Assembly: GCF_031598375.1 (NCBI RefSeq)
Contig: NZ_CP123872.1
Location: forward strand, 248,001 to 312,000
Source: Temperatibacter marinus
GTDB taxonomy: Bacteria; Pseudomonadota; Alphaproteobacteria; Sphingomonadales; Kordiimonadaceae
Reading direction: 5' to 3'
Length of the DNA: 64,000 bases
Part shown: positions 21,598 to 43,383 of the stretch, piece by piece
Numbering within the stretch: the first letter of the stretch is position 1
Layout: each line of letters begins with the position of its first letter
The notes under the pieces: generated by a model
Databases searched by the model: none
The model's input: the letters and a program-made list of their open reading frames with translations, nothing else
Told to the model about the DNA's origin: nothing
Position numbers and translations under genes: made by a program

Positions 21598-21644
21598 TTG
21601 GCACATCTTATGCTAATACATATGTTGTGGCATAATTTATGTCA
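21598..21644 (+). promoter_or_regulatory. TonB receptor promoter with two operators
   Basis: TTGGCA at 21598-21603 and TATGTT at 21621-21626 are spaced by 17 bp. Operator 1 (TGGCACA-TCT-TATGCTA, 21599-21615) overlaps the -35 box. Operator 2 (TGGCATA-ATT-TATGTCA, 21628-21644) lies just after the -10 box. Operator 2 matches the 7-3-7 sites at 31392, 42020 and 43367. Confidence 0.65.
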
Positions 21645-21676
21645 ATATGGGAAAGGGAAATTCGAAAGGGAGATAG

Positions 21677-24301
21677 ATGGGAAAACCATTTTTAACTCGG
21701 ATGCTGGCGACAACAAGTGCGCTGGCAACTGGTTTGGTGCTTAATGCACCCGGTTCACTGGCACAAGATTCAGATCAATTGTTAGAAGAAATTGTTGTGA
21801 CCGCAACAAAAAGAAAAACCACACTTCAAGACACACCTGTTGCGGTTTCAGTAACAAGTGCAAAAACAATTGAACAATCAAGAATTTTAGATTTGAAAGA
21901 CCTTCAATCTGTTGTTCCTAGTTTGCGTGTTGCACAGCTGCAAACCTCAGGCAATACGAATTTCATTATTCGTGGATTTGGTAATGGGGCGAACAACCCT
22001 GGCATTGAGTCGTCTGTCGGTATGTTCATTGATGGTGTCTACAGATCTAGAACAATGGCACGTATTGGTGATTTACCAAAAATAGAACGGGTAGAAGTAT
22101 TGCGCGGTCCTCAAAGTACCTTATTTGGCAAAAACGCCTCTGCTGGTGTCATTAATGTTGTGAGCGCAGCCCCGTCATTTGAGCCTGAAGGTTATGTGGA
22201 AGCGGGATATGGAAACTATAATAATTTCACCGCCAAAGCCTATTATACCAATGGTCTCTCAGATAATGTTGCCTTTAGTCTAAGCGCAAACCTTAACGTT
22301 CGTGATGGCTATACTGAGGCTGTTATTGACGGTGTTGAAGATATCAACAATCGGAACCGCAAGGGAATTAGAGGCCAACTATTATTCACACCTTCCGATA
22401 ATACACAAATCCGCTTAATTGCCGATTACTCTGAGCTGGATGAAGTATGTTGCTCCATTGTCAATCTGCAAAATGAAGGGGCTGCAAATGTTCTTTATGC
22501 ACTGGGCGCTCAGCTTGCCGATGATCAAGATCTTTTTGCTAATAAAGCCTACATGAATGTTACGCCGAGTAACAAGATTGATGATTATGGATTTTCTGCA
22601 AATGTCAGTCATGATTACGAGACTTTCAATCTAACATCTATTACTTCATATAGGAAAAATGAATCTGCCAATGATTATGATGCTGACTTCACCAGTTTAC
22701 CTATCATTCAAAGACAAGAATTAGTCAACGTAGAGACATTCACGCAAGAAATTAGACTGACATCTACAGGGGATAATACCATTGACTGGATGATTGGTGG
22801 TTTCTTATTTAAAGATGAAGTATATTCTGAGGACGGCTTAGATTGGGGCGCGGCAACACGCAATTATGTTAATGCTCTCGCGGGTGGGCCTGCATTACTA
22901 GGCGTAGTAGAAGCCGCGAACGGCTTTGCTCCGAATACATTTTTCAGTCCTGGCGTCGCCGCGAGTGAATCATATACACAAGATAATACATCGATCTCAT
23001 TTTTCGGGACCCTTGATTATCATGTCACTGAAAATTTCACAATTACAGGGGGGCTAAATTATACTCGCGATAAAAAAACGATCTCTGCGATCAATAACTT
23101 TATGGACCCATGGTTCTTCCTTGATATGACCACTGCGAATGGAACTGACATCCTTGCGAATGGTCAGATTATGGCTGCTTGGAATGATCCATCGAGCGCA
23201 TTATATCAGGCCTTCCAAGGTGCCTTTGGTATTCCCCTTACTCAACAAACCCAAACATTGATTGCAAGTGGTGGCGCTGGGCCACTCGCGCAAGCTGGCT
23301 ACTTACAAGGGTTTTTCCCTCAAGTTCAGCAAGGGGTTATTGGCTCGCTTCAAGGACTGCAATTTGTACCGCCGATGATTGATATTCCAAATAGTGTGGA
23401 AAGCGGCAAATCTGATGATGACGATCTAACATGGAATATCCGTGGTACCTATGAAATCAATGATAACATGACTGTTTATGTCGGTGCATCAACTGGTTTC
23501 AAATCTTCCTCATGGAACCTTTCTCGTGCCAGTGCCCCCTTCTACGCCGATGGTGCGGCCATGCAGGCTGCGGGCCTATTGAACCCTGGTATCAATGTTC
23601 TGGGTAATTCAATTGCTACATCCAGAAATTTTGGGACACGGTTCGCTAGTCCAGAGAAAGCTAAAGTCTATGAAATAGGCTTTAAATCACGGTTCGAACG
23701 CGGTGCCTTTAATTTAGCTATATTTGATCAAACGATTGAAGGCTTCCAGTCTAACCTTTTCCAAGGCAATGGTTTTGTTCTGGCTAATGCTGGTGAACAA
23801 TCGACCAAAGGCTTTGAAGTTGATGCCACATGGTTGCCTGTTGATGCACTAACATTAACATTCGCGGCGACTTATCTGGATGCAAAATACGATTCATTCG
23901 AAAATGCACCGGGCCCAGACAACAGTGTTGTTGACCTTTCAAATGAAAGACCAGCTGGCATTCCTAAATGGGCATTATCAACCTCTGCAACTTATAACTT
24001 TGAATTAGGAGAAGCGGCGGGATTTGTTCGTGCCGATTGGCAATATGAAAGTAATGTCCTAATGGTTGATAATATCCTGGCGACCACAGGCGCGGAGCAA
24101 CCCTTCCGCGAAATCAGCACATTCAACGCCAGCGCAGGACTATCATGGGAAAATGGCCTTTCTGTTCAGATATGGGCTCGCAATCTGTTTAATGACAAAT
24201 ATCTCATGTCAGCATTCCCGGGCGTCTTACAACCTGGTGTTATCAATGGATATAGAAACCCAACGAGAACCTTTGGATTCAATGTTCGCAAAGAATTCTA
24301 A
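21677..24301 (+). CDS. TonB-dependent outer-membrane receptor
   Basis: An 874-residue receptor. The signal peptide ends near SLAQ (residue 30), the TonB box is LLEEIVVTATKRK, the plug carries VEVLRGPQSTLFG, and the barrel ends in VRKEF. AGGGAGATAG precedes ATG 21677. It is the only outer-membrane transporter in the 26-kb segment and has two copies of the shared operator at its promoter. It is therefore the likely entry point for the compound degraded by the sulfatase and dehydrogenase genes that follow. The ligand cannot be told from sequence. Confidence 0.93.
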   Translation: MGKPFLTRMLATTSALATGLVLNAPGSLAQDSDQLLEEIVVTATKRKTTLQDTPVAVSVTSAKTIEQSRILDLKDLQSVVPSLRVAQLQTSGNTNFIIRGFGNGANNPGIESSVGMFIDGVYRSRTMARIGDLPKIERVEVLRGPQSTLFGKNASAGVINVVSAAPSFEPEGYVEAGYGNYNNFTAKAYYTNGLSDNVAFSLSANLNVRDGYTEAVIDGVEDINNRNRKGIRGQLLFTPSDNTQIRLIADYSELDEVCCSIVNLQNEGAANVLYALGAQLADDQDLFANKAYMNVTPSNKIDDYGFSANVSHDYETFNLTSITSYRKNESANDYDADFTSLPIIQRQELVNVETFTQEIRLTSTGDNTIDWMIGGFLFKDEVYSEDGLDWGAATRNYVNALAGGPALLGVVEAANGFAPNTFFSPGVAASESYTQDNTSISFFGTLDYHVTENFTITGGLNYTRDKKTISAINNFMDPWFFLDMTTANGTDILANGQIMAAWNDPSSALYQAFQGAFGIPLTQQTQTLIASGGAGPLAQAGYLQGFFPQVQQGVIGSLQGLQFVPPMIDIPNSVESGKSDDDDLTWNIRGTYEINDNMTVYVGASTGFKSSSWNLSRASAPFYADGAAMQAAGLLNPGINVLGNSIATSRNFGTRFASPEKAKVYEIGFKSRFERGAFNLAIFDQTIEGFQSNLFQGNGFVLANAGEQSTKGFEVDATWLPVDALTLTFAATYLDAKYDSFENAPGPDNSVVDLSNERPAGIPKWALSTSATYNFELGEAAGFVRADWQYESNVLMVDNILATTGAEQPFREISTFNASAGLSWENGLSVQIWARNLFNDKYLMSAFPGVLQPGVINGYRNPTRTFGFNVRKEF

Positions 24302-24383
24302 AGACACATCTCTCAGGAGCCTTTTATCAGATGTTCCCTTCTAATTGTTTCGAGTATATCTGATAAGCTTCCACTCCTGAATC

Positions 24384-24542: not shown

Positions 24543-25310
24543 TCACCCAAATGGCCAAGAATTGGTTATAAAGGTCTCGTCGACACACCAAGGGTTTTGG
24601 GGAAGATGTTCGCTGACTCTCTTGAGCCATGGCCCAACAGTCGGATGGGCAAGCACAGGTAGATCCTTTACTAAACCGACTTGATAAAAAAACATCATCT
24701 GAGCATAGATTGCAAAATCAGCGAGCGATGGTTTATCTAATTTTCCTAAATAAGGGCCTGTGTCCAAATACTGAGTCAATTCCATAAACAAGCGCATTTG
24801 CATCGCTTCCAAGGGTTCACTGAGATCAAGCTGATTAACAATATGATGGATAAAAGGCGCCTGCCGCAGCAAATCCGGCCAAGACTTTTGGACTGTTTCT
24901 GATAACTCAGCGCCACTCGATACAATACTTGCCAGACGCCACGCACGCTTCTTAAAGCCCTCGTTCATTTCCCCGTCCAATGCTGGGCGAAAGACAATTC
25001 CAGGAATAAACTGCTCACTGATCCACTGATCAATTGCAAGAGCAATTTCACGGTCTTCGGCGTTGTCACTGACCAGCCGTCTTTCAGGATAAACCTCATC
25101 AAGCCATAAACCAATAGAAGACGAATCTAGGCGCCACTCATCTCCTATTTTCAATACAGGAACTTGTGATCCCTTTGTAAAGCCAATGGTTTTCTCGGGC
25201 TCAACAGGACTAACACCGACAAATTCAAATGATAACTTTTTATAATGTAAATAACAGGCAACTTTTCTGACAAAAGGACTCGTCGCATACCCATATAAAG
25301 TAATCGTCAT
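24543..25310 (-). CDS. Glutathione S-transferase family protein
   Basis: A 255-residue GST-fold protein. It starts with ITLYGYATSPFVRKV and has SQVPVLKIGDEWRLDSSSIGLWLDE as the cis-proline and gamma-glutamyl-binding segment. The C-terminal helical domain contains the N-capping motif PSLADFAIYAQM. It is the last gene of the minus-strand operon running from 31347. ATG overlaps the SRPBCC stop as ATGA, so translation is coupled. Possible roles are glutathione-dependent ether cleavage, isomerisation or dehalogenation; none can be chosen from sequence. Confidence 0.82.
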   Translation of the reverse strand: MTITLYGYATSPFVRKVACYLHYKKLSFEFVGVSPVEPEKTIGFTKGSQVPVLKIGDEWRLDSSSIGLWLDEVYPERRLVSDNAEDREIALAIDQWISEQFIPGIVFRPALDGEMNEGFKKRAWRLASIVSSGAELSETVQKSWPDLLRQAPFIHHIVNQLDLSEPLEAMQMRLFMELTQYLDTGPYLGKLDKPSLADFAIYAQMMFFYQVGLVKDLPVLAHPTVGPWLKRVSEHLPQNPWCVDETFITNSWPFG

Positions 25311-25772: not shown

Positions 25773-26678
25773 TTAGGTGTCTATAAACGGGATCAAATAC
25801 TCTAACAATTCTTCTGGGGCTTCTTCAGGTGAAAAATGACCTACGCCTTCTAAAATTGCATGATTTTGATTAGTACTGCCTGGAATCTGTCTCATCAATA
25901 CTTTATGCCCTCCCCGGGTTATGGGGTCTTTATTTCCAAATACAGTCAGTAAAGGTTTATGATAGTTAGCTAGTTTCGCCCAAGCATCCCTATTGGCTGA
26001 TACACCAGGGTTGTCAGGGAATATTGCGATGAGTTGTGGAAATTTTAAAATGCCAGCTTGGTATTTTTTCTCTGGAAATGGGGCTTTATATGCTGCCAGA
26101 ACATCTGACGTGGGGAAATTTCTTCGAAATCCTTTTTCAAAAGCCATTTTCCATGGGAATACAAGAGAAAATTTCATAAGGCGCAACCACCAACGCATCC
26201 AACTATTGCCTCCGTTACCAATTGGCAAGCCAGTATTCGTCGCAAAAATACGATCGAACCTATCTGGATAATCTGCAACCAGTTTTAGCCCTAAGGTGCC
26301 TCCCCAGTCCTGACATACTAGCGTAATGTTATTTAGGTCATTCGCCTCTAACCATTTTGAATACCATTCATGATGACGGGCCAAGGTGTAATATTTTCTT
26401 TTTGCAGGCTTATCAGACCGACCACAGCCGACTAAATCCAATGCAATAATTCTCCGCCCTGTAGGGATTAATCCTTTGATGACATGGCGATAAAGAAACG
26501 ACCATGTTGGATTACCATGCATTAGCAAAATAGGATCGGCATCCTTTGGGCCTATATCTATACTGTGAATTCGAATATCTGTGCCGTCTTCATCTTTAAT
26601 TGTCGTGTAAGTCGGTTCAAAATCATAATCAGGTAAATTTTCAAAATATTGATCCGGCGTTCTTTCAATTTTCATCAT
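25773..26678 (-). CDS. Haloalkane-dehalogenase-like alpha/beta hydrolase (HLD-I type)
   Basis: A 301-residue alpha/beta hydrolase with all marks of haloalkane dehalogenases of subfamily I. These are HGNPTWSFLYR at 54-64, nucleophile D124 followed by halide-binding W125 in CQDWGG, acid D251 in FGNKDPIT, and base H281 in GVGHFSPEEAP. A second tryptophan in FPW (176) sits where DhlA has its other halide ligand. Such enzymes turn R-X into R-OH plus halide through an aspartyl ester. Some related hydrolases act on epoxides or fluoroacetate instead, so the reaction is probable, not proven. The start overlaps the preceding membrane-protein stop. No signal peptide, so cytoplasmic. Confidence 0.75.
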   Translation of the reverse strand: MMKIERTPDQYFENLPDYDFEPTYTTIKDEDGTDIRIHSIDIGPKDADPILLMHGNPTWSFLYRHVIKGLIPTGRRIIALDLVGCGRSDKPAKRKYYTLARHHEWYSKWLEANDLNNITLVCQDWGGTLGLKLVADYPDRFDRIFATNTGLPIGNGGNSWMRWWLRLMKFSLVFPWKMAFEKGFRRNFPTSDVLAAYKAPFPEKKYQAGILKFPQLIAIFPDNPGVSANRDAWAKLANYHKPLLTVFGNKDPITRGGHKVLMRQIPGSTNQNHAILEGVGHFSPEEAPEELLEYLIPFIDT

Positions 26679-27148: not shown

Positions 27149-28225
27149 CTAGAGCGACACAAGAATTCCGCGTTTTCCTGATATTTTATTATCGAGCATA
27201 TCTAACCAGATTTGAGCACAAGCTTCAGCACCCTGATGTCGCTCAACACTTAACTGGCCCTTCAGGCATACTGCTAATCCTGCACTAGCGACAGTAGCTT
27301 TTTCCATTAGAACGCCAGGTCCCCATTCTTTATTGCGTTTATCAATTTGGCCGGGTGTAAAGAAAAAGGCAGGACGTACACCAGGAACCTCTTGCTTCAT
27401 GGATGCATCCTCCCAGTGTGTTGCGCCAACAATTTGACTCGATTGCAGATCACTTTCTAAATGCGTATGTAAGGCTAATCGAGTAGCTGCATCCCCTGAC
27501 ATATCTATATAGACGGATGATGTTTGTGCTAGGGATTTAATAGCATCATAAGTCACGACTTGATCACAAATATCTAATCCTTTGACAAAGTCTTTATTAC
27601 CAGCAGAAGTTAAGCCAATCAGTTGACCTTTATAGCCATTCTTTTTGATAAAAGAAGCCGTGCCGATGCCTGTTTTTGAAGAAACAGATCCCACAATGAT
27701 TTGACCTGCGTTAAACCAATCATGATCTAGCATAAAATCAGCGATCACAAATCCTGTCATAAATAATGGAAATAAAATGCACCGTTCATTTTCTAATGCT
27801 CTCATGCCTTCTGGCTCTCCCTGAGTCCGAGAATATTGATTATAGAGCGCAGGCAAACTTGCGCGATGAGAAGACTCATCAAAAAAATACCCTTCTTTAA
27901 TTCTTCCTGGTATCATATCAAGATAACGGCTCATCGGGAAAAAGCCGTACAGCCGCTCACCAACCGAAATTTCAGCACAGTTGCTTTCAATGACATCCGC
28001 CATGCCCCATACAGTCACTTTACCCCAATCGTCTTCACCCGTCGGAAAATAGTGCCAATAGCCTATCATCTCGCCACTCATGGCATAGCCAACATTGTTT
28101 GATGTAAGAGCAAATTTATCGACCGATACACGAATTCCACCCTCTTGAAGAGGCATCAGGTCAGACTCAACAGTTCTCGTTTTTCGTAAGTTACTCTTTT
28201 TGGTCCATAATTCAGTATTTTTCAT
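27149..28225 (-). CDS. DUF2855 family protein (MDR-like)
   Basis: A 358-residue protein of the DUF2855 family, which resembles a medium-chain reductase. It has an N-terminal GroES-like part (GGIRVSVDKFALTSNNVGYAMSGE) and a Rossmann-like part with VGSVSSKTGIGTASFIKKNG in place of the usual glycine-rich loop. The segment YWHYFPTGEDDWGKVTVWGMADV is typical of the family. Its reaction is not known to me; related proteins occur in lipid and terpenoid degradation clusters. It follows an unrecognised membrane protein by 12 bp in the same operon. Confidence 0.72.
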   Translation of the reverse strand: MKNTELWTKKSNLRKTRTVESDLMPLQEGGIRVSVDKFALTSNNVGYAMSGEMIGYWHYFPTGEDDWGKVTVWGMADVIESNCAEISVGERLYGFFPMSRYLDMIPGRIKEGYFFDESSHRASLPALYNQYSRTQGEPEGMRALENERCILFPLFMTGFVIADFMLDHDWFNAGQIIVGSVSSKTGIGTASFIKKNGYKGQLIGLTSAGNKDFVKGLDICDQVVTYDAIKSLAQTSSVYIDMSGDAATRLALHTHLESDLQSSQIVGATHWEDASMKQEVPGVRPAFFFTPGQIDKRNKEWGPGVLMEKATVASAGLAVCLKGQLSVERHQGAEACAQIWLDMLDNKISGKRGILVSL

Positions 28226-28237
28226 GATTTGATCGCC

Positions 28238-28852
28238 TTACAAAAATGTATTGATCCCAAAGGACAGTACAAAGCAGATGAGTAATATTAAGCACGGAAC
28301 CCAGTAAAAAGGATTCATGAAGCTCATAAACCTGAATTGTATTGGGAAAGAAATGGTACGCTCTATTGCCATAAGTTTAAATTTATGCACATCCGGTAAT
28401 TTATCATCTGATAATATTTCAGCAAAGTCACGGCGACTTCGATAGCGCATCATGCTCATCACAGGATAGTCTAAATCCTCCCTGATATTCCATGTATCGA
28501 TATTATTCCCTACTCGCTTAACCATATAAACAGGATGGCCTGCACGTCGGAGCAGAGCTTTTGCAAATGGCTTATAATATCTATGCAAATTTTCTTGAGC
28601 CTCTTTTGTACTCATATCTTCGCTACTTTTCTTAAGCTCAATATAATTGGCTATAAAAAATTCTTTGCCGTCATCTTCTTCAAGAAATTTTCTAAAATCT
28701 TCTGGCTTGGTGGTCTCACTCGCTTTAGACCGCGAGAAATCATCCATAGTTTTTTCTATTTCAGCGGGCTTCATCGGCCCTCGAAAATTCCGATACCAGA
28801 AGACAAAAGTCATATGAATAATGGTGCCTATAACAAAAACTTCAAAAATCAT
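28238..28852 (-). CDS. Unrecognised protein with hydrophobic ends
   Basis: A 204-residue protein with a hydrophobic helix at the N-terminus (about 1-18) and another at the C-terminus (about 180-202), and a soluble middle. The middle contains FLEEDDGKEFFIANYIEL, KALLRRAGHPVYMVKRVGNNIDTWN and MSMMRYRSRRDFAEIL, which looks like a ferredoxin-like dimeric barrel of the kind found in DUF1330-type proteins. I cannot name the family. Its stop lies 12 bp before DUF2855 and its start overlaps the reductase stop as ATGA. Confidence 0.55.
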   Translation of the reverse strand: MIFEVFVIGTIIHMTFVFWYRNFRGPMKPAEIEKTMDDFSRSKASETTKPEDFRKFLEEDDGKEFFIANYIELKKSSEDMSTKEAQENLHRYYKPFAKALLRRAGHPVYMVKRVGNNIDTWNIREDLDYPVMSMMRYRSRRDFAEILSDDKLPDVHKFKLMAIERTISFPIQFRFMSFMNPFYWVPCLILLICFVLSFGINTFL

Positions 28853-29847
28853 TTTGCCACCTTTAATAAGAGTTTACCGTGATTTTTCCCTGCGTAGACC
28901 ATCTTCATGGCCTCTCCAAAGTTCTCAATACCTTCTAGCATATGTTCTCGAAAAACAATTTTCCCTTCTTGCTTGGCTGCAATGAGATACTTAAGGGCCT
29001 CAGGAATGAGATGAAAATAATCTTTCATAGTAAACCCCTGAATTTTTAAGCTGCTGGAGATGACTTTTAGGAAGTTCGCTGGACCTTGAATAGCACTAAA
29101 ATCTCCATACTGAGAGATAGCCCCACATATAACAATTTGTGATTGATAATTTGCCAAAGAAATTGCTGCTTCTAGTGTTTGACCACCAACATTATCAAAG
29201 TAAACATCAATCCCTTTAGGGCACTCGCGTTTCAACGCTTCATAAATATCTTCATTTTTATAGTCGATCACCCCATCCAATTTTAGTGTGCCTTTCAAAA
29301 AGGCACATTTTTCAGGGCCGCCCGCGATCCCTACAACGTATGCGCCTGCCAGTTTAGCAATCTGCGAAGCAACACTACCGACTGCGCCGCTGGCTGCTGA
29401 GACAACGACAGTATCGCCTTTTTTAGGCTTACCGATATCTGTCATCCCGAAATAGGCGGTATATCCCGTCATACCGAGCCCACTTAAAAAGTCTTTTGGC
29501 TCGCCATATGTCAGATCAATTTTCCGTAATTCGCGCTGATTTAAGATACCGTGCGTCTGTACACCTAAAAACCCAGTCACCCAGTCGCCAGCTTGAAAAT
29601 ACTTAGAATTACTCTCGAGAACTTCTGCGACACCAAAACAACGCATGATGTCCCCAGGTTGAACGGGGGGCATATAACTTTTTACATTCGTCGTCCAACC
29701 CCGCATAGCAGGGTCAAGAGAGATGGTATCCATGCGAATCCTAACATCACCCTCCTGCATGTCAGGTAATGGATCATGAGTAAGAGCAAAAATATCATCT
29801 GTTGATCCATCATGAAACTGAGTCGTTCTGACCTGTGTAATATCCAA
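28849..29847 (-). CDS. NADP-dependent oxidoreductase (MDR, prostaglandin-reductase/CurA type)
   Basis: A 332-residue reductase of the leukotriene B4 dehydrogenase group. The cofactor loop reads VSAASGAVGSVASQIAKLAG, and the hallmark segments LDPAMRGW and GMTGYTAYFGM are both present. Such enzymes reduce enone double bonds with NADPH. It is likely to reduce an unsaturated intermediate in the island's pathway. 132 bp separate its start from the small gene at 29980, so a local promoter is possible, though the operon probably continues from 31347. Confidence 0.87.
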   Translation of the reverse strand: MDITQVRTTQFHDGSTDDIFALTHDPLPDMQEGDVRIRMDTISLDPAMRGWTTNVKSYMPPVQPGDIMRCFGVAEVLESNSKYFQAGDWVTGFLGVQTHGILNQRELRKIDLTYGEPKDFLSGLGMTGYTAYFGMTDIGKPKKGDTVVVSAASGAVGSVASQIAKLAGAYVVGIAGGPEKCAFLKGTLKLDGVIDYKNEDIYEALKRECPKGIDVYFDNVGGQTLEAAISLANYQSQIVICGAISQYGDFSAIQGPANFLKVISSSLKIQGFTMKDYFHLIPEALKYLIAAKQEGKIVFREHMLEGIENFGEAMKMVYAGKNHGKLLLKVAK

Positions 29848-30192: not shown

Positions 30193-31347
30193 TTATTTCC
30201 AAACTTCCAGACACTCTTTACGAATTATGCGACGCTGTGTTTTAAGTGTTAAAATCGATGTCAAATTTGATTTACTGAAAATATCACATACAGGCCTTTG
30301 ACCTTCTGCACTCAAATCACCAAAATAATCTGTTAAGCGCTGTAAAAGGTAGAAACGATAAAGCATGACAGCACTGCTGTTTGTCTTACCGCGCCAATCA
30401 AAGGACGCATATCCAATACTTCGTTTAGATGGATTATCTAATCCGCTCGTTCCTGATTCAATGTGAGTATTTTTTTCAAGCCAGTCATTTGCAAATCCAA
30501 CATGTGAAGTTATTTCAGGTAAATATTCTTCCGCCACATAAGCCATAAGTTTGATCAAGGTATCTGGAATTGCATCATCAGAAAATAAGTCACCCTTTGA
30601 TGAGATATACAGATGGTTCTCATTACCAGCTGGCGCATTCATTCTTTCAACCCACTGGAATAAATGCGGTGCTTTTTTTTGCATAATCGACAATGGCTTT
30701 GGATCACGGCCTAAATGTGCAAAAAGAGGTCCAAAAAGACCGTAATCAGCGATCGTCGGCCGCCCGCCTAATAAGAAAGGATGATTAGTAAGATGGGCTT
30801 CAATATAAGTTAAAAACTCATCATACGAGTCTTCTACATCTTTTTGGTTCTCATCTTTAACACCAAATTGAATGGTTGCCTTTCTCATACGTCCACTGGC
30901 ATGTAGAAAAAAGCCTTCTTGCTCTTCTGTCGAGAGATTTGGGGGTAAAACATCTCGGAACGCTAACTTAAGAAAGTCTAAATTAGCCTCATCAAAATTC
31001 CATCTGTAATGCATCGCTGGACGCAGCAGTCCCTCCCCTCCAAACAGTTCAAAGAGGTGAGCAATAGACTGCAAAACGGGCGTATCTGGATGAATAGACC
31101 CTTTATTGGGTTCCTCTTGATTCAGATAATCAAGAATCACTGTACCATCTTGAATAATATGATCTTCAGGGGTGACAACAGTTGGGATAATCCATCGCTG
31201 AACCTTTGGAACAATATTCTGAGTAAACTCTGGTAACCCTGCAGCCCGTTCAACAAAATTAACCCCATGAAAGCGCATATAGGCTCTGACTTTTGCCGTA
31301 TAGAGCGAAGCCATCATGCCATATAAAATGTATGGTTTGTCCGTCAT
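30193..31347 (-). CDS. Long GST-like protein, paralogue of the gene at 32574
   Basis: A 384-residue GST-fold protein, much longer than a normal GST (about 210). The N-terminal thioredoxin-like part starts YILYGMMASLYTAKVRAYMRF and has QRWIIPTVVTPEDHIIQDGTVILDYL. The C-terminal part has the helical GST core NHPFLLGGRPTIADYGLFGPL and an extra 130 residues. The gene at 32574 shares this build, including the MHYRWNF and PFLLGxRPxxAD segments. Start ATG 31347 lies directly after AGGGTGAG. An in-frame extension to 31449 would run through the operator at 31392 and is rejected. First gene of the operon to 24543. Confidence 0.75.
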   Translation of the reverse strand: MTDKPYILYGMMASLYTAKVRAYMRFHGVNFVERAAGLPEFTQNIVPKVQRWIIPTVVTPEDHIIQDGTVILDYLNQEEPNKGSIHPDTPVLQSIAHLFELFGGEGLLRPAMHYRWNFDEANLDFLKLAFRDVLPPNLSTEEQEGFFLHASGRMRKATIQFGVKDENQKDVEDSYDEFLTYIEAHLTNHPFLLGGRPTIADYGLFGPLFAHLGRDPKPLSIMQKKAPHLFQWVERMNAPAGNENHLYISSKGDLFSDDAIPDTLIKLMAYVAEEYLPEITSHVGFANDWLEKNTHIESGTSGLDNPSKRSIGYASFDWRGKTNSSAVMLYRFYLLQRLTDYFGDLSAEGQRPVCDIFSKSNLTSILTLKTQRRIIRKECLEVWK

Positions 31348-31391: not shown

Positions 31392-31408
31392 TGACATATT
31401 TTGTGTCA
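31392..31408. promoter_or_regulatory. Shared operator between GST-like gene and MBL hydrolase gene
   Basis: TGACATA-TTT-TGTGTCA, a 7-3-7 inverted repeat with one mismatch, in the 160-bp divergent gap. It matches sites at 21628, 42020 and 43367. Confidence 0.65.
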
Positions 31409-35418: not shown

Positions 35419-36003
35419 TTATTTCAATAAACTCTCTAGTTGCCCTTGTAAAAGATCTTTAGCGTCGTCTCGGCTCATTCCTTGGTGTCTTGTAAGACGG
35501 TTCCAAGCTTCAAAAGAAACAAGAGCTTCAACAAATTGTTGAGTAGGAACATCTTTACCCTTAAGTTCTGGCAAACAAAGAAATAAATGCTGTTTGAAAA
35601 TACTGTTTAAATCCTCATAGGTGTTCTTGAGAGCTTGGTATTTCCATAACTGACTGAGTGTACTTAAAATCATTTCTCTATATTTAATATATAAGACATG
35701 ACGCGCTCTCAAAAAAGCATCAACTCTCTCTTCAAGCGGCCCTTCAATAATGGATTGCCTAAGAAACCCATATTCTGATTCTTTAATATCTTCATGAAGT
35801 GAATAAAACAGACTTTCCATATCATCAAAGTGACGGAAAACAGTCCGAATACCAACCTTTGCTCTATCAGAAACTTGTTGCGCTGTAGGAATACGAACGC
35901 CCTCACTCATCAAATCACCCAAGGCCTTTTTTATGGCCTCTCTGCTCTTTAGGCTTCTGGCTTTACGGCCATCATTATGTGATTTTTTTTTCACAACTGT
36001 CAT
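35419..36003 (-). CDS. TetR-family transcriptional regulator of the sulfatase operon
   Basis: A 194-residue TetR-like regulator. A basic N-terminal tail (VVKKKSHNDGRKARSLKSR) precedes the helix-turn-helix (PTAQQVSDRAKVGIRTVFRHFDDMESLF). It is the last gene of the six-gene operon that begins with the sulfatase at 41985, and its start overlaps the preceding gene as ATGA. As the only TetR in the 26-kb segment it is the best candidate to bind the repeated TGACATA-N3-TATGTCA sites, including the one that would control its own operon. That assignment is inference. Confidence 0.87.
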   Translation of the reverse strand: MTVVKKKSHNDGRKARSLKSREAIKKALGDLMSEGVRIPTAQQVSDRAKVGIRTVFRHFDDMESLFYSLHEDIKESEYGFLRQSIIEGPLEERVDAFLRARHVLYIKYREMILSTLSQLWKYQALKNTYEDLNSIFKQHLFLCLPELKGKDVPTQQFVEALVSFEAWNRLTRHQGMSRDDAKDLLQGQLESLLK

Positions 36004-37256
36004 AAATATCCTATTTTACTTATAAACTTTGCGATCAACCAAAGTCTATCTTGCCCCCAAGCTTTAATCACTTCATTACCTGCTTCATCAAGCAGTCTGT
36101 AACTTGGAACTCCCCATAATCCAAACTCATACATATCAAGCCTATTAGATTCTAATACCTCTGTCCATTCTATTTCATCAAGGTGACTTATCGCATCTGA
36201 CCAATCGAGACCAACATTCTTGCAAACAGTCTTCAGTCCATTGTTCGTGTTAGTATTGATACCCTCCACAAAAGCCGCATTTAAAAAGGCACTCAGAAAC
36301 TGCTCCCCTTTGTCATGGGTTTTCGCCCAATGATAAAGACTATATCCTTTCTTCACAGGTTCCCCAATTGGATCATAGAACTTTCCATAAGGGATATCTT
36401 GAGCACGAGCTTCACGCGCAGCATCTTTAAAGATATACATCCCCTTCTGTCGTGTTGCAGGTACACCGCGCATGACCATAGGGAGGACAGGTTTAATAAT
36501 AAGATTTACGCCTGTCTTGCGAGCAAATTTAACAGTTTGATCATAGGCAAGCGCTGTATAAGGACTTCTCAAGGAGGCATAAAACTCCAGCGTTAAACTA
36601 GGTCCCTTTGCAGCCTGATCCTGAATAATTTCAGGTCGTGGATAGAGAAAACCTTGCTCTGGATATTTATCTGCTCCAAACAGTCTTAGGCGATTTTCTA
36701 GATGATAGAGCCTGTCGATCCCCCAATACCATTCACCCTCATAATAAAACATTGCCCCACTATAATGCCCAAGCCTAGCGCGCAATTGATTCCCAACGTC
36801 TTGCCTTTCACTAAGAGAGCCCTGAGCTGCTGATCCATATGAGTCCTGGATCGCCATCACCGCTTCATCAGACATACTCTGAGGACTTTGGAGACCAAAA
36901 CAAGGGGCAATGAGAGATGCATCTGTATAAGAATATTTTTCTAATAAGTCAGGTTCAGGGGCATTATAACCGCACTCAGCAGTTACAAGATGCATGATGA
37001 GTTCTATGTCATAACGCTCTAGCAGCGGTTTAAGGGTTTGAACTGCCAAATCGGAATAGCCATCTTGACTTTGATGAAAGTAATAAACAACATGACCACG
37101 ATTATCTTTTAGGCGTTTCTTTTCAGAGTTTGCCCATAATTTTTTTTGTGCTTTTTCGCTCCCAATAGAGGTCAATATTTTTGACTGAAGCCAACGAGTA
37201 AATCTATCCGGATTACTCTTTGAAGCGCCTGATTGTTGGGTCGTATAATCTGTCAT
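36000..37256 (-). CDS. DsbA-like thioredoxin protein (2-hydroxychromene-2-carboxylate isomerase/GST-kappa type)
   Basis: A 418-residue protein with two DsbA/GST-kappa-like halves. The first (about 53-170) starts HVVYYFHQSQDGYSDLAVQTLKPLL. The second (about 217-410) starts LTLEFYASLRSPYTALAYDQTVKFA, has KPVLPMVMRGVP, and ends with GLWGVPSYRLLDEAG, the cis-proline segment of this family. No CxxC is present, so it is not a disulfide oxidase. Relatives are glutathione-dependent isomerases. It is separated by one base from the sulfatase stop and overlaps tetR. Confidence 0.75.
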   Translation of the reverse strand: MTDYTTQQSGASKSNPDRFTRWLQSKILTSIGSEKAQKKLWANSEKKRLKDNRGHVVYYFHQSQDGYSDLAVQTLKPLLERYDIELIMHLVTAECGYNAPEPDLLEKYSYTDASLIAPCFGLQSPQSMSDEAVMAIQDSYGSAAQGSLSERQDVGNQLRARLGHYSGAMFYYEGEWYWGIDRLYHLENRLRLFGADKYPEQGFLYPRPEIIQDQAAKGPSLTLEFYASLRSPYTALAYDQTVKFARKTGVNLIIKPVLPMVMRGVPATRQKGMYIFKDAAREARAQDIPYGKFYDPIGEPVKKGYSLYHWAKTHDKGEQFLSAFLNAAFVEGINTNTNNGLKTVCKNVGLDWSDAISHLDEIEWTEVLESNRLDMYEFGLWGVPSYRLLDEAGNEVIKAWGQDRLWLIAKFISKIGYL

Positions 37257-37257: not shown

Positions 37258-39063
37258 CTAATCCTTCGATTTCATGCGCCAATAAACACCAAAAGGCAAT
37301 AATATCAGCATCAACAAAATAAGAGAGATGATTGAATTTCTATTCATCACAAGCGTGTTCAGTAAAAGTTGTCTTATATGGTTACCATAGCTTTCAGGGA
37401 CTTCGTAAACACCCGCCTCTTTAGCCCATAATTCATATGCTGACAGCATCCGCTGAAACTGAAGCGGCTGGATAGTTTTAAGATCTTCTGTCTCGCCAGG
37501 ATCTTTAAGGATATTAAATAGCTGCCACTCATTATTGCCAATGGGGCTGCGCAAGTGTCGGATTTTATAATCACCCATAAAGAGAGCACTATTTCCTGCG
37601 AGTTCATAAGCAACAGGTTGTTCTTCTGGATATACTTTAACCATCTTATTTTGTAGCACTGGCACAAGACTATTCCCTGATATTTTTTCAATCCGACGTC
37701 CTGCATAAATGTCACTTGGTCTTGGAGCTCCTACTATATCTAGAATTGTTGGTGTAATATCAGTCGCAAAACTAAAGGCATCAGATATACGACCTTTGTC
37801 TTTTACAAGGTCACCAGAAATGATAAGAGGGACGCGCATCCCGCCTTCAGAAGTATAAAATTTATAGTAAGAGAGAGGTGAAGCTGATGCGCTGGCAAAA
37901 CTCAATGAAATAGCATTATAACTGCCCTGTAGACCCAAGGTATTATACTCACTTGTATAACCTGTGCGACGATTGCTTAGACGTGTTAATAGACCAGATT
38001 GCTGATTATCTCTACCCGAAGAATGTGTGCCATTGTCTGAGGTGAAAATAAAGATGGTATTATCATATTCACCTCTGTCCTTTAGATATTGAATCAGCCG
38101 CCCTAAATGATGATCCATGGCTTCCACCATGGCGCCGTATACAGCCATCCTTTTGGCTTCATATCGCCTCTCACCTTCTGATAAACTTTCCCAATTAAGC
38201 GTCGTTGACATTTCGTTCATTTTTGTATTCGCCGGAACAATACCTTGATCAATTGCGCCTTTTAATCTGGATTGACGTAGCGCATGCCACCCAGCATCAT
38301 ATTTTCCCATATATTTATCGATAAAATTCTGAGGGGCCTGAATGGGAATATGCACTGCTTGAAAAGGTAAATAGCCAAAGAAAGGTTTTCCGCCTTCAAG
38401 ATCGCTATCAATAAATTCGATAAGCTTATCCACTAAAAATTCTGAAGAATAAAAATCATCTGGCAAATCGGCAGGCTTGCCGTCCGCATACCAATTCGCT
38501 TCTTTATAAAGAGGGATATAAGGACGATCTTCCCAATTATCAGCCCCACTATCCCCTAGAGAAAAAGTCCTATGAAACCCTCGATTAAAGGGCAATTTAT
38601 CGGGTGTTTGGCCCAGATGCCACTTCCCCGCCATATAGGTGTTATATCCATTATCCTGCAAAAGTGTGGCGATAGTCACAGTGCGATGCGATAGAACACC
38701 ATCATAAGCTGGCATCTTTCTTGTTGCATCGGGCCGCGTTTCACGAATATTGCCCACACCTGCACTATGGTTATTAACCCCAGTCATAAGCATCGCGCGA
38801 GCAGGAGAACAATTTGCTGCAGTATGATAATTCGTAAACCTGATGCCTTTAGACGCCAGAGCGTCGATAACGGGCGTTGAAATTTCACTGCCATAGGACC
38901 CTAAATCTGTATATCCAAGGTCATCCGCCAGAAGTAAAATAATATTGGGTTTTTTAGTCTTTGAAGCATTATTATCCTCAGAAGCATATAAAGCCTTTGA
39001 AGTATGAATAGGCAGGGGTAAAAAAACACAAAGACTGATTAGGGCACCAATAATATATTTCAT
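37258..39063 (-). CDS. Arylsulfatase (Cys-type, exported)
   Basis: A 601-residue sulfatase with a signal peptide (about 1-25). It has LLLADDLGYTDLG (calcium ligands D47/D48) and the formylglycine motif C85-S-P-A-R89 in NCSPARAMLMTG. Later come KWHLG and FTSDNGTHSSG, both conserved active-site segments. A C-terminal hydrophobic helix (about 575-595) followed by basic residues should anchor it to the inner membrane with the domain in the periplasm. It hydrolyses sulfate esters after Cys is matured to formylglycine. It is fourth in the operon from 41985. The organic part of its substrate is unknown. Confidence 0.9.
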   Translation of the reverse strand: MKYIIGALISLCVFLPLPIHTSKALYASEDNNASKTKKPNIILLLADDLGYTDLGSYGSEISTPVIDALASKGIRFTNYHTAANCSPARAMLMTGVNNHSAGVGNIRETRPDATRKMPAYDGVLSHRTVTIATLLQDNGYNTYMAGKWHLGQTPDKLPFNRGFHRTFSLGDSGADNWEDRPYIPLYKEANWYADGKPADLPDDFYSSEFLVDKLIEFIDSDLEGGKPFFGYLPFQAVHIPIQAPQNFIDKYMGKYDAGWHALRQSRLKGAIDQGIVPANTKMNEMSTTLNWESLSEGERRYEAKRMAVYGAMVEAMDHHLGRLIQYLKDRGEYDNTIFIFTSDNGTHSSGRDNQQSGLLTRLSNRRTGYTSEYNTLGLQGSYNAISLSFASASASPLSYYKFYTSEGGMRVPLIISGDLVKDKGRISDAFSFATDITPTILDIVGAPRPSDIYAGRRIEKISGNSLVPVLQNKMVKVYPEEQPVAYELAGNSALFMGDYKIRHLRSPIGNNEWQLFNILKDPGETEDLKTIQPLQFQRMLSAYELWAKEAGVYEVPESYGNHIRQLLLNTLVMNRNSIISLILLMLILLPFGVYWRMKSKD

Positions 39064-39065: not shown

Positions 39066-39461
39066 TCAGCCCCTCTTAGTTTCGCAAATATATCCACTTC
39101 CATAATACCACAAGAGAGCAATGATGATCTCAGGCATGATCATATCGCCCGCAAAATCAGCGTGATGAATGAGCCAAGCCATAAGTCTACCAAAGGCAGT
39201 CAGACCAAGCATGATCACAGGCATATAAAACCAAAATCTTTTTTTTGTGACGATACCCAGAAAGGCACAGAGTCCAAGGGTTAAAAAATAAGCTGAAAGA
39301 TCACCGATCTGCGAACTCAGTCCCAGTCCAGTCATAAGTTCAAATCCAAATTCAGGAGCCACACCTGCAGGATCAATGATCCACCTTAAGCCAATCAAGA
39401 TAAACAGAAGGGCCGGCAAAGCCATAATAATGCGTACAAAATTCAACAATTTACTATTCAT
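39066..39461 (-). CDS. DUF4345-like small membrane protein
   Basis: A 131-residue protein with about four membrane helices. The N-terminal segment (LPALLFILIGLRWIIDPAGVAPEFGFEL) and middle part (DLSAYFLTLGLCAFLGIV) resemble DUF4345 proteins. Function unknown. It sits between the sulfatase at 37258 (2 bp) and the DJ-1-like gene (10 bp), so it is cotranscribed. Confidence 0.62.
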   Translation of the reverse strand: MNSKLLNFVRIIMALPALLFILIGLRWIIDPAGVAPEFGFELMTGLGLSSQIGDLSAYFLTLGLCAFLGIVTKKRFWFYMPVIMLGLTAFGRLMAWLIHHADFAGDMIMPEIIIALLWYYGSGYICETKRG

Positions 39462-39471: not shown

Positions 39472-40323
39472 CTATTTATCAGCGATCAAACTCAGCATTT
39501 TATGGGAAGTTTCAAGACCAGAATTTTGATTTTGACCCGTCACAAATCGTTTCTCAGCGTCAATGACAACATGCGTTTGAAAGATGTCACGAAACCCAGT
39601 ACTCGCTTCATATAATGCGCCAGCCTTTCGGAGCTCAGTTTCTGGATGCTTGGGTGTCACTTCGATCCCTAACTCTTTCAATTGTTTATCAGTGACACCT
39701 GTCATTTTTCTACCTGCTATTAATAAATTGCCATCTTTATCTTTTGCATTCACCAACCCTAAGACACCATGACATACGCCGCCAATTACTGCTTTTTTCT
39801 CGCTATAATAAGCCTGCGTAATTTTGGTCGCTAATACAGAGGACTGCGCCATATCATAAGCAGCACCCCAACCGCCTGACAAAAAGATTAAATCATAGTC
39901 TTCAAAATTAACATCTTGAATTGCGAGAGAATTCTTGACCTTGGCTTGAAAAATTGTGTCTTTTTGAAATTGTTTATCTTCCACAGTAATCACAGGATGA
40001 CTAAAACTTTGTGGATCAATCGGAATTTCACCGCCCTTAATACTCGCCACATCAATTTCCATTCCAGCGTCTAGAAATGTGTAATAAGGATGCGTTAACT
40101 CTGAACCGAATACACCTGTCGCCGGACCCTCAGTTTGACCGGGCTCAGAAAGAATACTGTGGCTGGTTGTGATAATGAGAGCCCGTTTCCCTTTTGCACT
40201 ATATGTTGGTCCCGTGTAGACTGGATGCAGCCCAGCTTTATGAAGAATTGTTGGCAGTGCAATGGCAATTAATAGGACAACTGCACCTAATCCAGCTGCA
40301 ATTTTCAATAGTTTCTTTTTCAT
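39472..40323 (-). CDS. Membrane-anchored DJ-1/PfpI-family protein
   Basis: A 283-residue protein. An N-terminal membrane helix (about 7-27) is followed by a class I glutamine-amidotransferase-like domain with the nucleophile elbow GGVCHGVLG (C184-H185) and LIFLSGGWGAAYD at 145-157. Such proteins act as glyoxalase III, chaperone-deglycase or amidase-like hydrolases. The anchor implies a periplasmic site. It lies between the two sulfatase genes in one operon. Its link to desulfation is unclear. Confidence 0.8.
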   Translation of the reverse strand: MKKKLLKIAAGLGAVVLLIAIALPTILHKAGLHPVYTGPTYSAKGKRALIITTSHSILSEPGQTEGPATGVFGSELTHPYYTFLDAGMEIDVASIKGGEIPIDPQSFSHPVITVEDKQFQKDTIFQAKVKNSLAIQDVNFEDYDLIFLSGGWGAAYDMAQSSVLATKITQAYYSEKKAVIGGVCHGVLGLVNAKDKDGNLLIAGRKMTGVTDKQLKELGIEVTPKHPETELRKAGALYEASTGFRDIFQTHVVIDAEKRFVTGQNQNSGLETSHKMLSLIADK

Positions 40324-40332: not shown

Positions 40333-41985
40333 CTAGTTTGGCCAATAAATATATTCATCACCTTTTTTGTAAGACTGCTCATTGGTCTTATCAATCAAGA
40401 TTGGGGCGAGGATTGAATAGGGATAGCGAGCCCCTTTTCCCGAAGCGATGTGATTTTTTATGAGGTGATGTAACTCACTTACTTTTGTTGGTATCTGCTC
40501 AGCAAGATTATTTTGCTCCGTCGGATCTTCCTTAAGATCATAGAGCCATACTTTCTTGGGGTTTTCAGAAACCTTCAACTTCCAATCGCCAAGTCTGATT
40601 GCCCTGTAGAAACCACTCTGGAAAAACAAGGGTCGTTCTTTTATTGCACCTTTGCCACGGGCATAGGGCAGTAAATTGACACCGTCAATCTTTACATTTT
40701 GCGGCAGAGGCGCGCCGGCTGCTGCAGCCAATGTTGGAAAGATATCAATATGCATAACGGGGGTATCTAATTCTTTAGCTTCAGGAAGGCCATTAGGCCA
40801 TTTTATGAAATGCGGAACTCTCAATCCCCCTTCAAAAAAGGTTAATTTCCAACCTCTAAATGGTTTATTCAACTCTGGAAGCCCCACATATCCAGCACCG
40901 CCATTATCACTTGTGAAGACAATCATAGTATTATCAGCCTGCCCTGTTTCTTCTAAGGCTTGCTGAATTTTACCTACACTGCGATCAATAGCTCGCATCA
41001 TAGCCGCATACACACGGCGATTATGAGGTTTAATATCGCCAACCGCTTCATAGTCTGCACGTGTTGCCTGTAAGGGAGTATGCGTACCCCAATGGGCTAA
41101 ATAAAGAAAGAAAGGACGGTTTTTATTCGCCTTGATAACTTTGACACTTTCATTAGTCCAAAAATCAGTGAGATAGCCTTTAGGCTGAAAAAGATCTTCA
41201 TCCGTCGCATTATTAAATGTTGCTGAATACCGCAATCTTGCCCATAAGATCTTATCGATAGGATCCTGCTCTAATTTTGCATTCACCACATCTGGATGAT
41301 CTTCTGGCAAGTAAAGTCCGCTATGCATATACAAGCTATCATCGAAACCTTGATCATTCGGTGCCATGCCATTATAGCGCCCCATATGCCACTTCCCGAT
41401 ATGGGCTGTATAATACCCTCGCTCTTTCAGCACTTCTGCAATAGTTACTTCCTCTGCAGGTAACCCCTGATTTTCAAAGGGCACATCATTTTCAAAGCCT
41501 GGAAGTGTTTCGGGCATGTTGCGATCAATAGAGTTACTAACAGATATCAATGGACCAGCACCACCAGGAAAAGGTGTGAATTCATAGCCCGTCGTATTTT
41601 GATATCGTCCGGTCATCATCATACCCCGCGAGGGCGCACACGTAGCATTTCCAGCATAGCTTTGTCTGAAAACCACAGATTCTGAGGCTAATTTATCAAT
41701 GTGCGGCGTTTTTAAAAGTCCGCCCGCAATTCCACCTCCAAATGTTGAAATGTCATTGTAACCAACATCATCAAGGACAATAAATATAATATTAGGCTTT
41801 TGATTAAGCGCCTTCGATTCTGTCTCAGGACCTTGCTGCCATACTACCTCTCTGTTTGGCCGGATATCATATTGAGCATCAGTGCGTTTACTAATCATAA
41901 ACAACATCAACTCTATTCGATTAAACCAAGCAACTGATCCACCAACAGCAATCACTAAAGTAAAGAATATCAGAAATTTCTTCAT
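40333..41985 (-). CDS. Arylsulfatase (Cys-type, N-terminally anchored)
   Basis: A 550-residue sulfatase. An N-terminal hydrophobic helix (about 3-20) is followed by LDDVGYNDIS (calcium ligands) and the maturation motif C116-A-P-S-R120 in ATCAPSRGMMMTGRY. KWHMG and FTSDNGGAG follow later. It is distinct in detail from the other sulfatase (37258), so the two may remove sulfate from different positions. Start ATG 41985 follows GGGGAG at good spacing; an extension to 42009 lacks a ribosome site. It is the first gene of a six-gene operon and the shared operator lies 35 bp upstream. Confidence 0.9.
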   Translation of the reverse strand: MKKFLIFFTLVIAVGGSVAWFNRIELMLFMISKRTDAQYDIRPNREVVWQQGPETESKALNQKPNIIFIVLDDVGYNDISTFGGGIAGGLLKTPHIDKLASESVVFRQSYAGNATCAPSRGMMMTGRYQNTTGYEFTPFPGGAGPLISVSNSIDRNMPETLPGFENDVPFENQGLPAEEVTIAEVLKERGYYTAHIGKWHMGRYNGMAPNDQGFDDSLYMHSGLYLPEDHPDVVNAKLEQDPIDKILWARLRYSATFNNATDEDLFQPKGYLTDFWTNESVKVIKANKNRPFFLYLAHWGTHTPLQATRADYEAVGDIKPHNRRVYAAMMRAIDRSVGKIQQALEETGQADNTMIVFTSDNGGAGYVGLPELNKPFRGWKLTFFEGGLRVPHFIKWPNGLPEAKELDTPVMHIDIFPTLAAAAGAPLPQNVKIDGVNLLPYARGKGAIKERPLFFQSGFYRAIRLGDWKLKVSENPKKVWLYDLKEDPTEQNNLAEQIPTKVSELHHLIKNHIASGKGARYPYSILAPILIDKTNEQSYKKGDEYIYWPN

Positions 41986-42019: not shown

Positions 42020-42036
42020 TGACATAAACTATGTCA
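42020..42036. promoter_or_regulatory. Operator in front of the sulfatase operon
   Basis: Perfect 7-3-7 inverted repeat TGACATA-AAC-TATGTCA, 35 bp before the sulfatase start. It is identical in its arms to the site at 43367 and near-identical to those at 21628 and 31392. Confidence 0.72.
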
Positions 42037-42112
42037 TAATAAAAAGGAGATGTCTATACCTTAAGCCGAGGCGTGAGATGAGTTGAGAATACCAACAAGA
42101 AAAGGCAGCCCC

Positions 42113-43333
42113 TTACTCATTCAATATTTCAAAAGTTAAGCCAGCATTTTGCTCTAATCTCTCTATCAGAGTATGCCCAAAAAGAGTGGAAGGTGTCCAA
42201 AAACCGCCCTTCTTCTCTAGTTTATCTAACGCAGCAAGGCAAACTGCGGTTTCAGATATCATTTTAGAGGTACTACCATATCCAGGATCTTTATCTCCGG
42301 TAAGTTTCAGCGTCAATTTATCACCTTGATCTGAACGTCCAACAAACCTTAGATCATACATACCTGTCTCTTGTTCTTTTGGTGAAGGCCCTTCTCCAGG
42401 TTTGGGCAAAATAAATTTTTCCAAGATCCATCGTGTAGGCGCTAATGCCGCGAGTGTCATAAAAATAGTTAAGCCTAAACTCATTTTACGTGCTCGCGAC
42501 TTTCCATTAGAGTCACGACCCATCACCATTGCTTCACTATATTTAAAATCTCTGCCATAGGCCTTATCACGCAGGGCGTTCGAACGATGCACAACCCGCG
42601 AGTTCACAGCTTCCATGACAAAAGGTGCAATCCAAGCATGATACTGTTCGTCAAATTCTGCCTTGCTAACATTATGCTGTCGCACGGTGAACCCATGCCC
42701 TTCAGGACAAATACTATAAGGATTTTTAACAAGTTTACGTACTTTCGGGTCTTTGACAGCTTCTTTTGTCAAATTGACCATACTTGCTATAGTCCCTCCG
42801 CTGGCTCCCCCTTTGATTTTGGCAACGCGCATATCCACCTGCGTCAAATAAGATCCTGTCTTTTGTTTGGCATGCTCCTGCAGATAAAACACGCCCATAT
42901 CAGATGGAATAGAATCAAAACCACTACAATGGACAATGCGTGCACCAGATTTCTTCGCTGCTTCCTCATAGTGATCGAGCATTTTTTTATACCACTGGAT
43001 TTCACCTGTTAAATCACAGTAATCTGTACCTGTTTCAGTACAAATTTTAACAAGAGGTTCTCCGTACAATGCATAAGGGCCAACTGTTGATAATATTACT
43101 TTGGTTTGATCCACTAGGGCCTTCAAGGACTCTTCGTCCCCTGCATCCGCAATAAAATAAGGAATATCTTGCGCTTTATGCTTTTCTCTTAGATCAAGCA
43201 ATTTGGCTTCGCTTCGTCCTGCAATGGCCCAAGAAATACCACGATCAGTACCGTATTTATCCATCATATAGGCGACAATAATATCCCCAACAAAACTTGT
43301 TGCCCCATAAATGATTATATCAAATTTTTCCAT
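42113..43333 (-). CDS. Saccharopine-dehydrogenase-like protein (trans-acting enoyl reductase type)
   Basis: A 406-residue NAD(P)-binding protein. The N-terminus reads DIIIYGATSFVGDIIVAYMM, followed by AGRSEAKLLDL and TKVILSTVGPYALYGEPLVKIC, the hallmark of the saccharopine-dehydrogenase-like group that includes mycobacterial trans-acting enoyl reductases. A hydrophobic stretch (LGLTIFMTLAALAPT) follows. Those enzymes reduce lipid double bonds. A role on a lipid-like substrate fits the FATP ligase and desaturase in the island but is inferred. ATG 43333 follows GGGAGAG; the frame extends to 43408, across the operator, and that longer start is rejected. Confidence 0.75.
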   Translation of the reverse strand: MEKFDIIIYGATSFVGDIIVAYMMDKYGTDRGISWAIAGRSEAKLLDLREKHKAQDIPYFIADAGDEESLKALVDQTKVILSTVGPYALYGEPLVKICTETGTDYCDLTGEIQWYKKMLDHYEEAAKKSGARIVHCSGFDSIPSDMGVFYLQEHAKQKTGSYLTQVDMRVAKIKGGASGGTIASMVNLTKEAVKDPKVRKLVKNPYSICPEGHGFTVRQHNVSKAEFDEQYHAWIAPFVMEAVNSRVVHRSNALRDKAYGRDFKYSEAMVMGRDSNGKSRARKMSLGLTIFMTLAALAPTRWILEKFILPKPGEGPSPKEQETGMYDLRFVGRSDQGDKLTLKLTGDKDPGYGSTSKMISETAVCLAALDKLEKKGGFWTPSTLFGHTLIERLEQNAGLTFEILNE

Positions 43334-43366
43334 TCCAACTCTCCCATAAAAATCCCTCCTAAATAT

Positions 43367-43383
43367 TGACATATTATATGTCA
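43367..43383. promoter_or_regulatory. Operator between enoyl-reductase-like and SDR genes
   Basis: Perfect 7-3-7 repeat TGACATA-TTA-TATGTCA in the 163-bp divergent gap. On the plus strand it overlaps TTGACA (43366-43371), followed by TATAAC after 18 bp. On the minus strand it overlaps TATAAT (43378-43373), with TTGCAG 18 bp upstream. One bound repressor would block both promoters. Confidence 0.72.

Follow-up and report, generated by a model that had tools for sequence, protein, structure and literature searches.

A conserved palindromic operator and its probable TetR-family repressor in a candidate catabolic regulon of Temperatibacter marinus

Introduction

Among described systems, the closest in general kind to the one considered here are the TetR one-component repressors of catabolic and lipid genes. 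We analyzed a 64,000-bp stretch of the Temperatibacter marinus genome (contig NZ_CP123872.1, positions 248,001 to 312,000; hereafter, the window, to which coordinates refer unless noted otherwise), in which a palindromic operator recurs ahead of putative uptake and breakdown genes and a TetR-family regulator of 194 aa (35419..36003, minus strand; the 35419 protein) is encoded among them. With the known repressors this system would share the TetR fold, a palindromic operator in promoters, a regulator encoded together with its targets and a putative ligand-binding C-terminal domain. Matches to the predicted structure of the 35419 protein include FadR of Bacillus halodurans (5gpc) and EthR2/Rv0078, with identities of 6 to 18% over the 50 structures listed.

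A second parallel is PheR, an IclR-family repressor from Sphingobium sp. SHPJ-2, loss of which raises a catabolic operon and TonB-dependent uptake genes (PMC13273656). The likeness lies in one repressor governing a catabolic operon along with TonB-dependent uptake genes, an arrangement that is proposed here from sequence; PheR differs in its protein family, its operator, which has a GCAACG core, and its pathway, that of phenanthrene (PMC13273656). A literature search, judged by titles and the beginnings of abstracts and not extending to regulon databases, found among the papers listed nothing on the present operator or its target set of sulfatase, glutathione S-transferase (GST), dehalogenase-like and TonB genes. 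The switch is of an ordinary kind; new are the operator, the reach of the TetR family and the unnamed pathway.

Results

An initial annotation of the window had described a shared operator of the form TGRCATA-N3-TATGTCA, and its coordinates were right: the pattern is exact at 21628, 42020 and 43367, has one mismatch at 31392 and three at 21599. With up to three mismatches allowed, the window contains 32 matches, compared with 13.4 in shuffled sequences. The annotation had also proposed scanning the genome for sites elsewhere. Across all 3,184,799 bp, the relaxed 17-bp form TGRCAYANNNTRTGYCA, with the half-site TGRCAYA, is matched exactly at the four strong sites only (21628, 31392, 42020 and 43367), all within this segment of the window, versus 0.23 matches expected by composition and none for the reversed control. 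One mismatch raises the count to 15 places (3 for the reversed control), namely, the four strong sites, 21599 and 10 places outside the window. Nine of these 10 fall within open reading frames (ORFs), and the single intergenic one, at genome position 2,649,632, lies past the 3' end of one gene, more than 400 bp ahead of the next protein-coding gene, preceding two tRNA-like genes (judged by eye); the near-matches were, on these grounds, rejected as additional targets. The looser core TGRCAYNNNNNRTGYCA occurs at 10 places in the genome (control, 1; expected, 2.8), consisting of the four strong sites, five places within ORFs and one ahead of a thiolase gene, to which we return below.

Every strong site sits between or ahead of transcription units, which start at 21552/21677, 31347/31508, 41985 and 43347/43497. 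The sites, to none of which a strand is assigned, are TGGCATAATTTATGTCA (21628..21644), 32 bp before the gene for a TonB-dependent receptor; TGACATATTTTGTGTCA (31392..31408), between two divergent units headed by a GST gene (GST30, 44 bp away) and an MBL-fold hydrolase gene; TGACATAAACTATGTCA (42020..42036), 34 bp before the sulfatase gene SULF40, which opens the operon ending in the TetR gene; and TGACATATTATATGTCA (43367..43383), between the divergent units of a saccharopine-dehydrogenase-like gene (SACDH, 19 or 33 bp away, depending on the start chosen) and an SDR gene. The mechanically called ORFs of GST30 and SACDH begin at 31449 and 43408, overlapping the sites; starts at 31347 and 43347 appear likelier by inspection. 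The weaker site TGGCACATCTTATGCTA (21599..21615), 29 bp from that at 21628, lies between the TonB gene and a divergent unit formed by a beta-lactamase-family gene and a GST gene (BLAC-GST19). It looks like a conserved second operator, given that a partner 29 to 31 bp away is kept in two relatives (29 bp in G006, 31 bp in L019). A promoter-like TTGGCA-17-TATGTT begins at 21598 and is weak, because shuffled sequences yield matches of this kind at least as often (34 matches versus 40.1, and 31 versus 32.3, in the promoter scans).

The TetR gene is the last of the operon behind the 42020 site. By sequence, its product is a marginal family member, with a weak match to Pfam TetR_N (19.3 bits, E 0.00098, below the cut-off of 24), no NCBIfam match and a best E of only 0.0016 against the PDB. 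Its AlphaFold2 model (mean pLDDT 91.5) comprises ten helices, and the top match among solved structures is 4ich_B, a putative TetR protein (Z 15.5, root-mean-square deviation 2.9, 177 residues aligned), with the matches listed being mostly named TetR regulators. We are confident, on the strength of this model, in an all-helical TetR fold. The genome encodes no second match to the protein at E 0.001. The dyad operator lies in the putative target promoters and ahead of the regulator's own unit, as expected of the TetR family, judging from sequence and conservation.

To the initial proposal that the 35419 protein regulates these genes through a shared operator, the support is comparative. Relatives of the 35419 protein were fetched together with their surroundings by a contig scan in which the peptide FRHFDDME was one seed, yielding 73 loci from Proteobacteria and Myxococcota (27 to 48% identity); two further loci, L007 and L008, complete a set of 75. 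In this set the exact core TGRCAY-N5-RTGYCA occurs 58 times, including 53 occurrences before genes (as defined by mechanical ORFs), 4 in coding sequence and 1 elsewhere, whereas six control palindromes of the same letters yield zero to two sites each, none of them before a gene. Each locus was then scored with matrices built from at least 31 training sites, none of them taken from that locus or its kin (kin being those with TetR identity of at least 50% or at least 300 bp of similar DNA). In comparison with 365 simulations, scores at or above the 95% null level were obtained for 67 of the 73 loci; 65 attain the 99% level, and 60 surpass every simulation. An earlier version of the test also gave 67/73, with kin picked by hand and some remaining (e.g., L011/L013/L014 and L037/L080). 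Single-linkage grouping of kin chained 70 of the 73 loci together, so that the count of independent groups is not fixed; TetR alone at 50% chained into three. With permuted half-site matrices, 27, 14 and 9 of the 73 loci pass at three thresholds, compared with permutation means of 2.3, 0.9 and 0.1 and maxima over 200 permutations of 19, 11 and 2, the first two being high. In the midpoint-rooted TetR tree, operator-bearing loci, Myxococcota included, fall on either side of the root. In nine loci (L023, L053, L054, L055, L058, L061, L063, L064 and L075) an exact site stands ahead of the TetR gene itself, and SAR86 loci L028 and L030 have a one-mismatch site there; these eleven include near-duplicates.

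A table of 74 oriented rows extends the operator into AT-rich flanks, with the majority sequence ATATANTGRCAYNNWNNRTGYCANTATAT. The choice of rows dictates its core but not its flanks, and because many sites were entered in both orientations, the symmetry is partly built in. Left out of the table were the near-duplicates L016, L018, L038 and L042, coding-class sites and any side on which ORF starts overlap. Beyond the operator flanks no position stands out, and a fixed promoter geometry was rejected. A lopsided variant, such as TGACACTAGTACTGCTA, is present at L010:8846, L012:8815, L015:8779, L018:8779 and L040:2056, mostly in Halieaceae and Porticoccaceae; the TetR proteins of L010 and L012 read NIRS or AIRS where the consensus has GLRT, and operator and regulator could have changed together or the variant could reflect plain common descent. 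In two Comamonadaceae loci (L058:379-1515 and L064:8377-9627), the operator lies between the TetR gene and a divergent gene for a Phenol_MetA_deg protein, which may replace TonB as an uptake channel, and in two Myxococcota loci (L023:8245 and L026:11239) it adjoins luciferase-like monooxygenase genes.

Closer to T. marinus, the exact pattern was found in 4 of 29 genomes of the family (four places each in G000 and G006, one in G024 and two in G028). Since these 11 places compare with 5 for the reversed control, and the G024 site, both G028 sites and the fourth G006 site are within ORFs, the pattern is at background outside the regulon. In G006, which represents another genus, sites precede homologs (63 to 74% identity) of the TonB gene (two sites, 29 bp apart), SULF40 and the GST30/MBL pair (L131). 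Locus L019 preserves the order of the operon from SULF40 to TetR and has sites before its TonB (a double site), SULF40 and GST30 homologs. Genomes G004 and G005 encode a more distant TetR protein (28%), with a one-mismatch site between its gene and a GST19 homolog.

The gene content of the candidate regulon is as follows. The operon behind the 42020 site, on the minus strand, encodes, in order, SULF40, a type I sulfatase with the signature CAPSR (40333..41985, ATG at 41985), a DJ-1/PfpI family protein (39472..40323), a DUF4345-like protein (39066..39461; 21.2 bits, under the cut-off of 26.5), SULF37, a type I arylsulfatase with the signature CSPAR (37258..39063; best PDB match the arylsulfatase 1hdh, E 1.7e-118), a DsbA-domain protein (36000..37256) and the TetR regulator. 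The C-x-P-x-R sulfatase signature seen in both enzymes is retained in 16/16 matches to SULF37 and 40/47 matches to SULF40 from the TetR loci (five of the latter do not cover the place and two differ). Searches of the PDB gave no useful match for the DsbA-domain and cyclase-like proteins.

The TonB-dependent receptor gene (21677..24301, plus strand) diverges from BLAC (20125..21552, minus strand), a member of the PF00144 family that starts 46 bp from the 21599 site, and from GST19 (19449..20132, minus strand), which resembles YfcG/Ure2p-type GSTs. Homologs of GST19 (62 to 72%) adjoin an operator in L007, L008 and L019. The initial list of units, which began at 21.7 kb, is supported and should probably be extended by this divergent operon (21552-19449), with BLAC and GST19 as likely members.

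Leftward from the 31392 site, on the minus strand, run GST30 (30193..31347), a double-bond reductase-like enzyme (28849..29847; 315 bits, under the cut-off of 440), a conserved protein (28238..28852), a DUF2855 protein (27149..28225), a haloalkane-dehalogenase-like alpha/beta hydrolase (25773..26678) and GST24 (24543..25310). The conserved protein has no Pfam or NCBIfam match at E 0.001; across the 17 rows aligned, its RYRSRRD stretch does not vary, and its model is uncertain (mean pLDDT 70.3). GST30 and the reductase gene are separated by a 345-bp gap for which the listing shows no terminator-like match on the minus strand, so that the genes down to 24543 may be read from the 31392 site. This gap holds a 66-aa ORF (29980-30180, minus strand) that is the C-terminal remnant of a gene spanning 213 aa in G006 (L131:6592-7233; 55% identical), apparently reflecting decay inside the leftward unit. 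The assignment of each major unit to one site, as first proposed, holds overall, with two qualifications, namely, that 21599 seems to be a true second operator and that the unit 29847-24543 could have its own promoter, for which there is a 10-of-12 promoter-like match at 30252-30224, of a kind no commoner than in shuffles.

Rightward, on the plus strand, the same site is followed by the MBL-fold hydrolase (31508..32563; best PDB match 8gyg, named an arylsulfatase, E 1.2e-22), GST32 (32574..33623), one of four GST genes in the candidate regulon, and a long-chain acyl-CoA synthetase (33630..35408; NCBIfam PRK08279, 688 bits, cut-off 625). The 43367 site separates SACDH, a saccharopine-dehydrogenase-like NAD(P)-binding protein (42113..43347, minus strand; start 43347 or 43333), from the SDR oxidoreductase (43497..44258, plus strand) and a fatty-acid desaturase family protein (44292..45176, plus strand). 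Many of these enzymes recur in the 73 loci, by best assignment SULF40 in 44, GST32 in 32, the dehalogenase-like hydrolase in 24, GST30 in 21, DUF2855 in 19, and the MBL hydrolase and the 28238 protein in 17 each. An island defined by base composition was rejected, the G+C content of the segment (0.39 to 0.43) being within the range of its flanks.

Discussion

Because related repressors are encoded beside the same palindrome in many other bacteria, the TetR protein very probably docks at the one that precedes the breakdown genes among which it is encoded. We further consider it highly likely that the 35419 protein is an autoregulated, ligand-released repressor of a catabolic regulon acting at these operators. 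Given the sites, their restriction to the segment and the family-wide pairing of TetR and operator, we infer binding, repression rather than activation, an inducer and a pathway along the following lines. The 35419 protein would bind, presumably as a dimer, the palindrome, in which a weaker, AT-rich dyad of 29 bp surrounds the 17-bp core TGRCAY-N5-RTGYCA, and would hold down the units starting at 21552/21677, 31347/31508, 41985 and 43347/43497; with its own operon among the targets, it would be subject to negative autoregulation. An inducer, probably a pathway substrate or early product such as a CoA thioester, would bind the C-terminal domain and release the repressor, allowing joint production of the TonB uptake receptor and the enzymes. 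Repression, its autoregulation and ligand release are proposed by analogy, since they are the common mode of TetR proteins.

Of the competing explanations, the one that survives best is that the 35419 protein binds the sites and activates, or works with an activator, instead of simply repressing. Some TetR proteins are activators, a consistent placement of the -10 region with respect to the operator is not seen in the 74 oriented rows, and the start codons of the MBL and SDR genes, two of the six in the window, lie 99 and 113 bp from their sites, distances less telling for repression. Against this, at the TonB, GST30, SULF40 and SACDH genes the site ends 19 to 44 bp ahead of the start codon, where RNA polymerase or the transcription start is expected, and we regard activation as unlikely. 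It is very improbable that another regulator of the neighborhood binds the sites, with the 35419 protein as a passenger. A TetR protein (14754) and two LysR proteins (16906 and 45603) are encoded just outside the segment, flanking it, and regulators often act on neighbors. The 14754 and 16906 proteins, however, have no match in the 75 loci at E 1e-15 and the 45603 protein has one weak match (25%, L063), compared with the presence of the operator in 67/73; in eleven loci the sites stand ahead of the TetR gene itself, and the operator dyad differs from the T-N11-A form usual for LysR proteins. Finally, although short AT-rich palindromes arise by chance and these sites were first found by eye, the restriction of exact sites to the segment, their conservation before homologous genes in other genera and the lack of any control palindrome before a gene leave a negligible probability that they are chance or structural elements without a common regulator.

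Besides the distant MBL and SDR starts, several observations weigh against repression by the 35419 protein. A core site, TGGCACGCACAATGTCA, the sole one before a gene outside the segment, lies at genome position 1,500,034 (L136:1501), ~140 bp upstream of the thiolase gene. Six of the 73 loci show no site, and the peptide FRHFDDME was a search seed, so that its invariance in the recognition helix is in part a product of the search. As the loci were themselves chosen by the 35419 protein, there is formal room for a different regulator that invariably accompanies it. Beside the operator in L054, a second and distinct TetR gene (L054:5927-6598; Pfam TetR_N, 4.5e-08) diverges from the sulfatase gene, and L064:5752-6453 resembles it by its first residues. 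In G006, no TetR gene was found; the contig with its sulfatase breaks off within the DsbA gene, just ahead of the expected place of TetR, which excuses the absence without proving presence.

The survey of 289 genomes of the class is subject to similar reservations. The form TGACAYNNNNNRTGTCA is present in 16/17 genomes whose TetR match is stronger than E 1e-40 versus 88/272 others (Fisher 4e-7), a division that was set after the scores had been seen, in a gap from 2.5e-50 to 1.2e-35, and that counts six genomes with weaker matches (one with TGACAYNNNNNRTGTCA) among the 272. Without the division, TGACAYNNNNNRTGTCA is found in 17/23 matching genomes versus 87/266 (p 1.5e-4). The genomes are related and not independent, and G291, with a strong TetR match, lacks TGACAYNNNNNRTGTCA. 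The exact core is present in only 6 of 30 class loci taken with 1.5-kb flanks, each time beside a TetR match stronger than E 1e-54, and is absent from the remaining 24.

As for the substrate, the enzymes (sulfatases, dehalogenase-like hydrolase, GSTs and acyl-CoA ligase) allow the speculation that it is sulfated and perhaps halogenated. The 25773 hydrolase meets the haloalkane dehalogenase profile (NCBIfam PRK00870, 356 bits, cut-off 265), and its best PDB match is the haloalkane dehalogenase 5esr (E 4e-91), in alignment with which the Asp-Trp pair, the GHF histidine, the DPIT acid and the cap Trp are all retained, residues that we take to have catalytic roles in haloalkane dehalogenases. Asp-Trp is kept in 26/27 matches from the TetR loci; because it is present in epoxide hydrolases too, dehalogenase activity remains putative. 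A broader and rather doubtful suggestion is that the TetR family, operator and gene set form one widespread, horizontally moving regulon for uptake and breakdown of sulfated, halogenated natural products, e.g., algal chlorosulfolipids, in which the sulfatases and MBL hydrolase would remove sulfate esters, the dehalogenase-like hydrolase and GSTs would break carbon-halogen bonds, and the chain would enter beta-oxidation via the acyl-CoA synthetase. As judged by titles and the beginnings of abstracts, the chlorosulfolipid papers listed do not concern bacterial breakdown; nor was any work found on DUF2855 or on its combination with GST and sulfatase.

Through the repressor proposed here, a TetR subfamily that spans Alpha-, Beta- and Gammaproteobacteria and Myxococcota, and for which no description was found in the literature searched, gains a DNA site and a target set. 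In marine and lake genomes, the operator offers a means of assigning genes to the catabolic pathway, and the regulator may help to find the inducer and, hence, the substrate.

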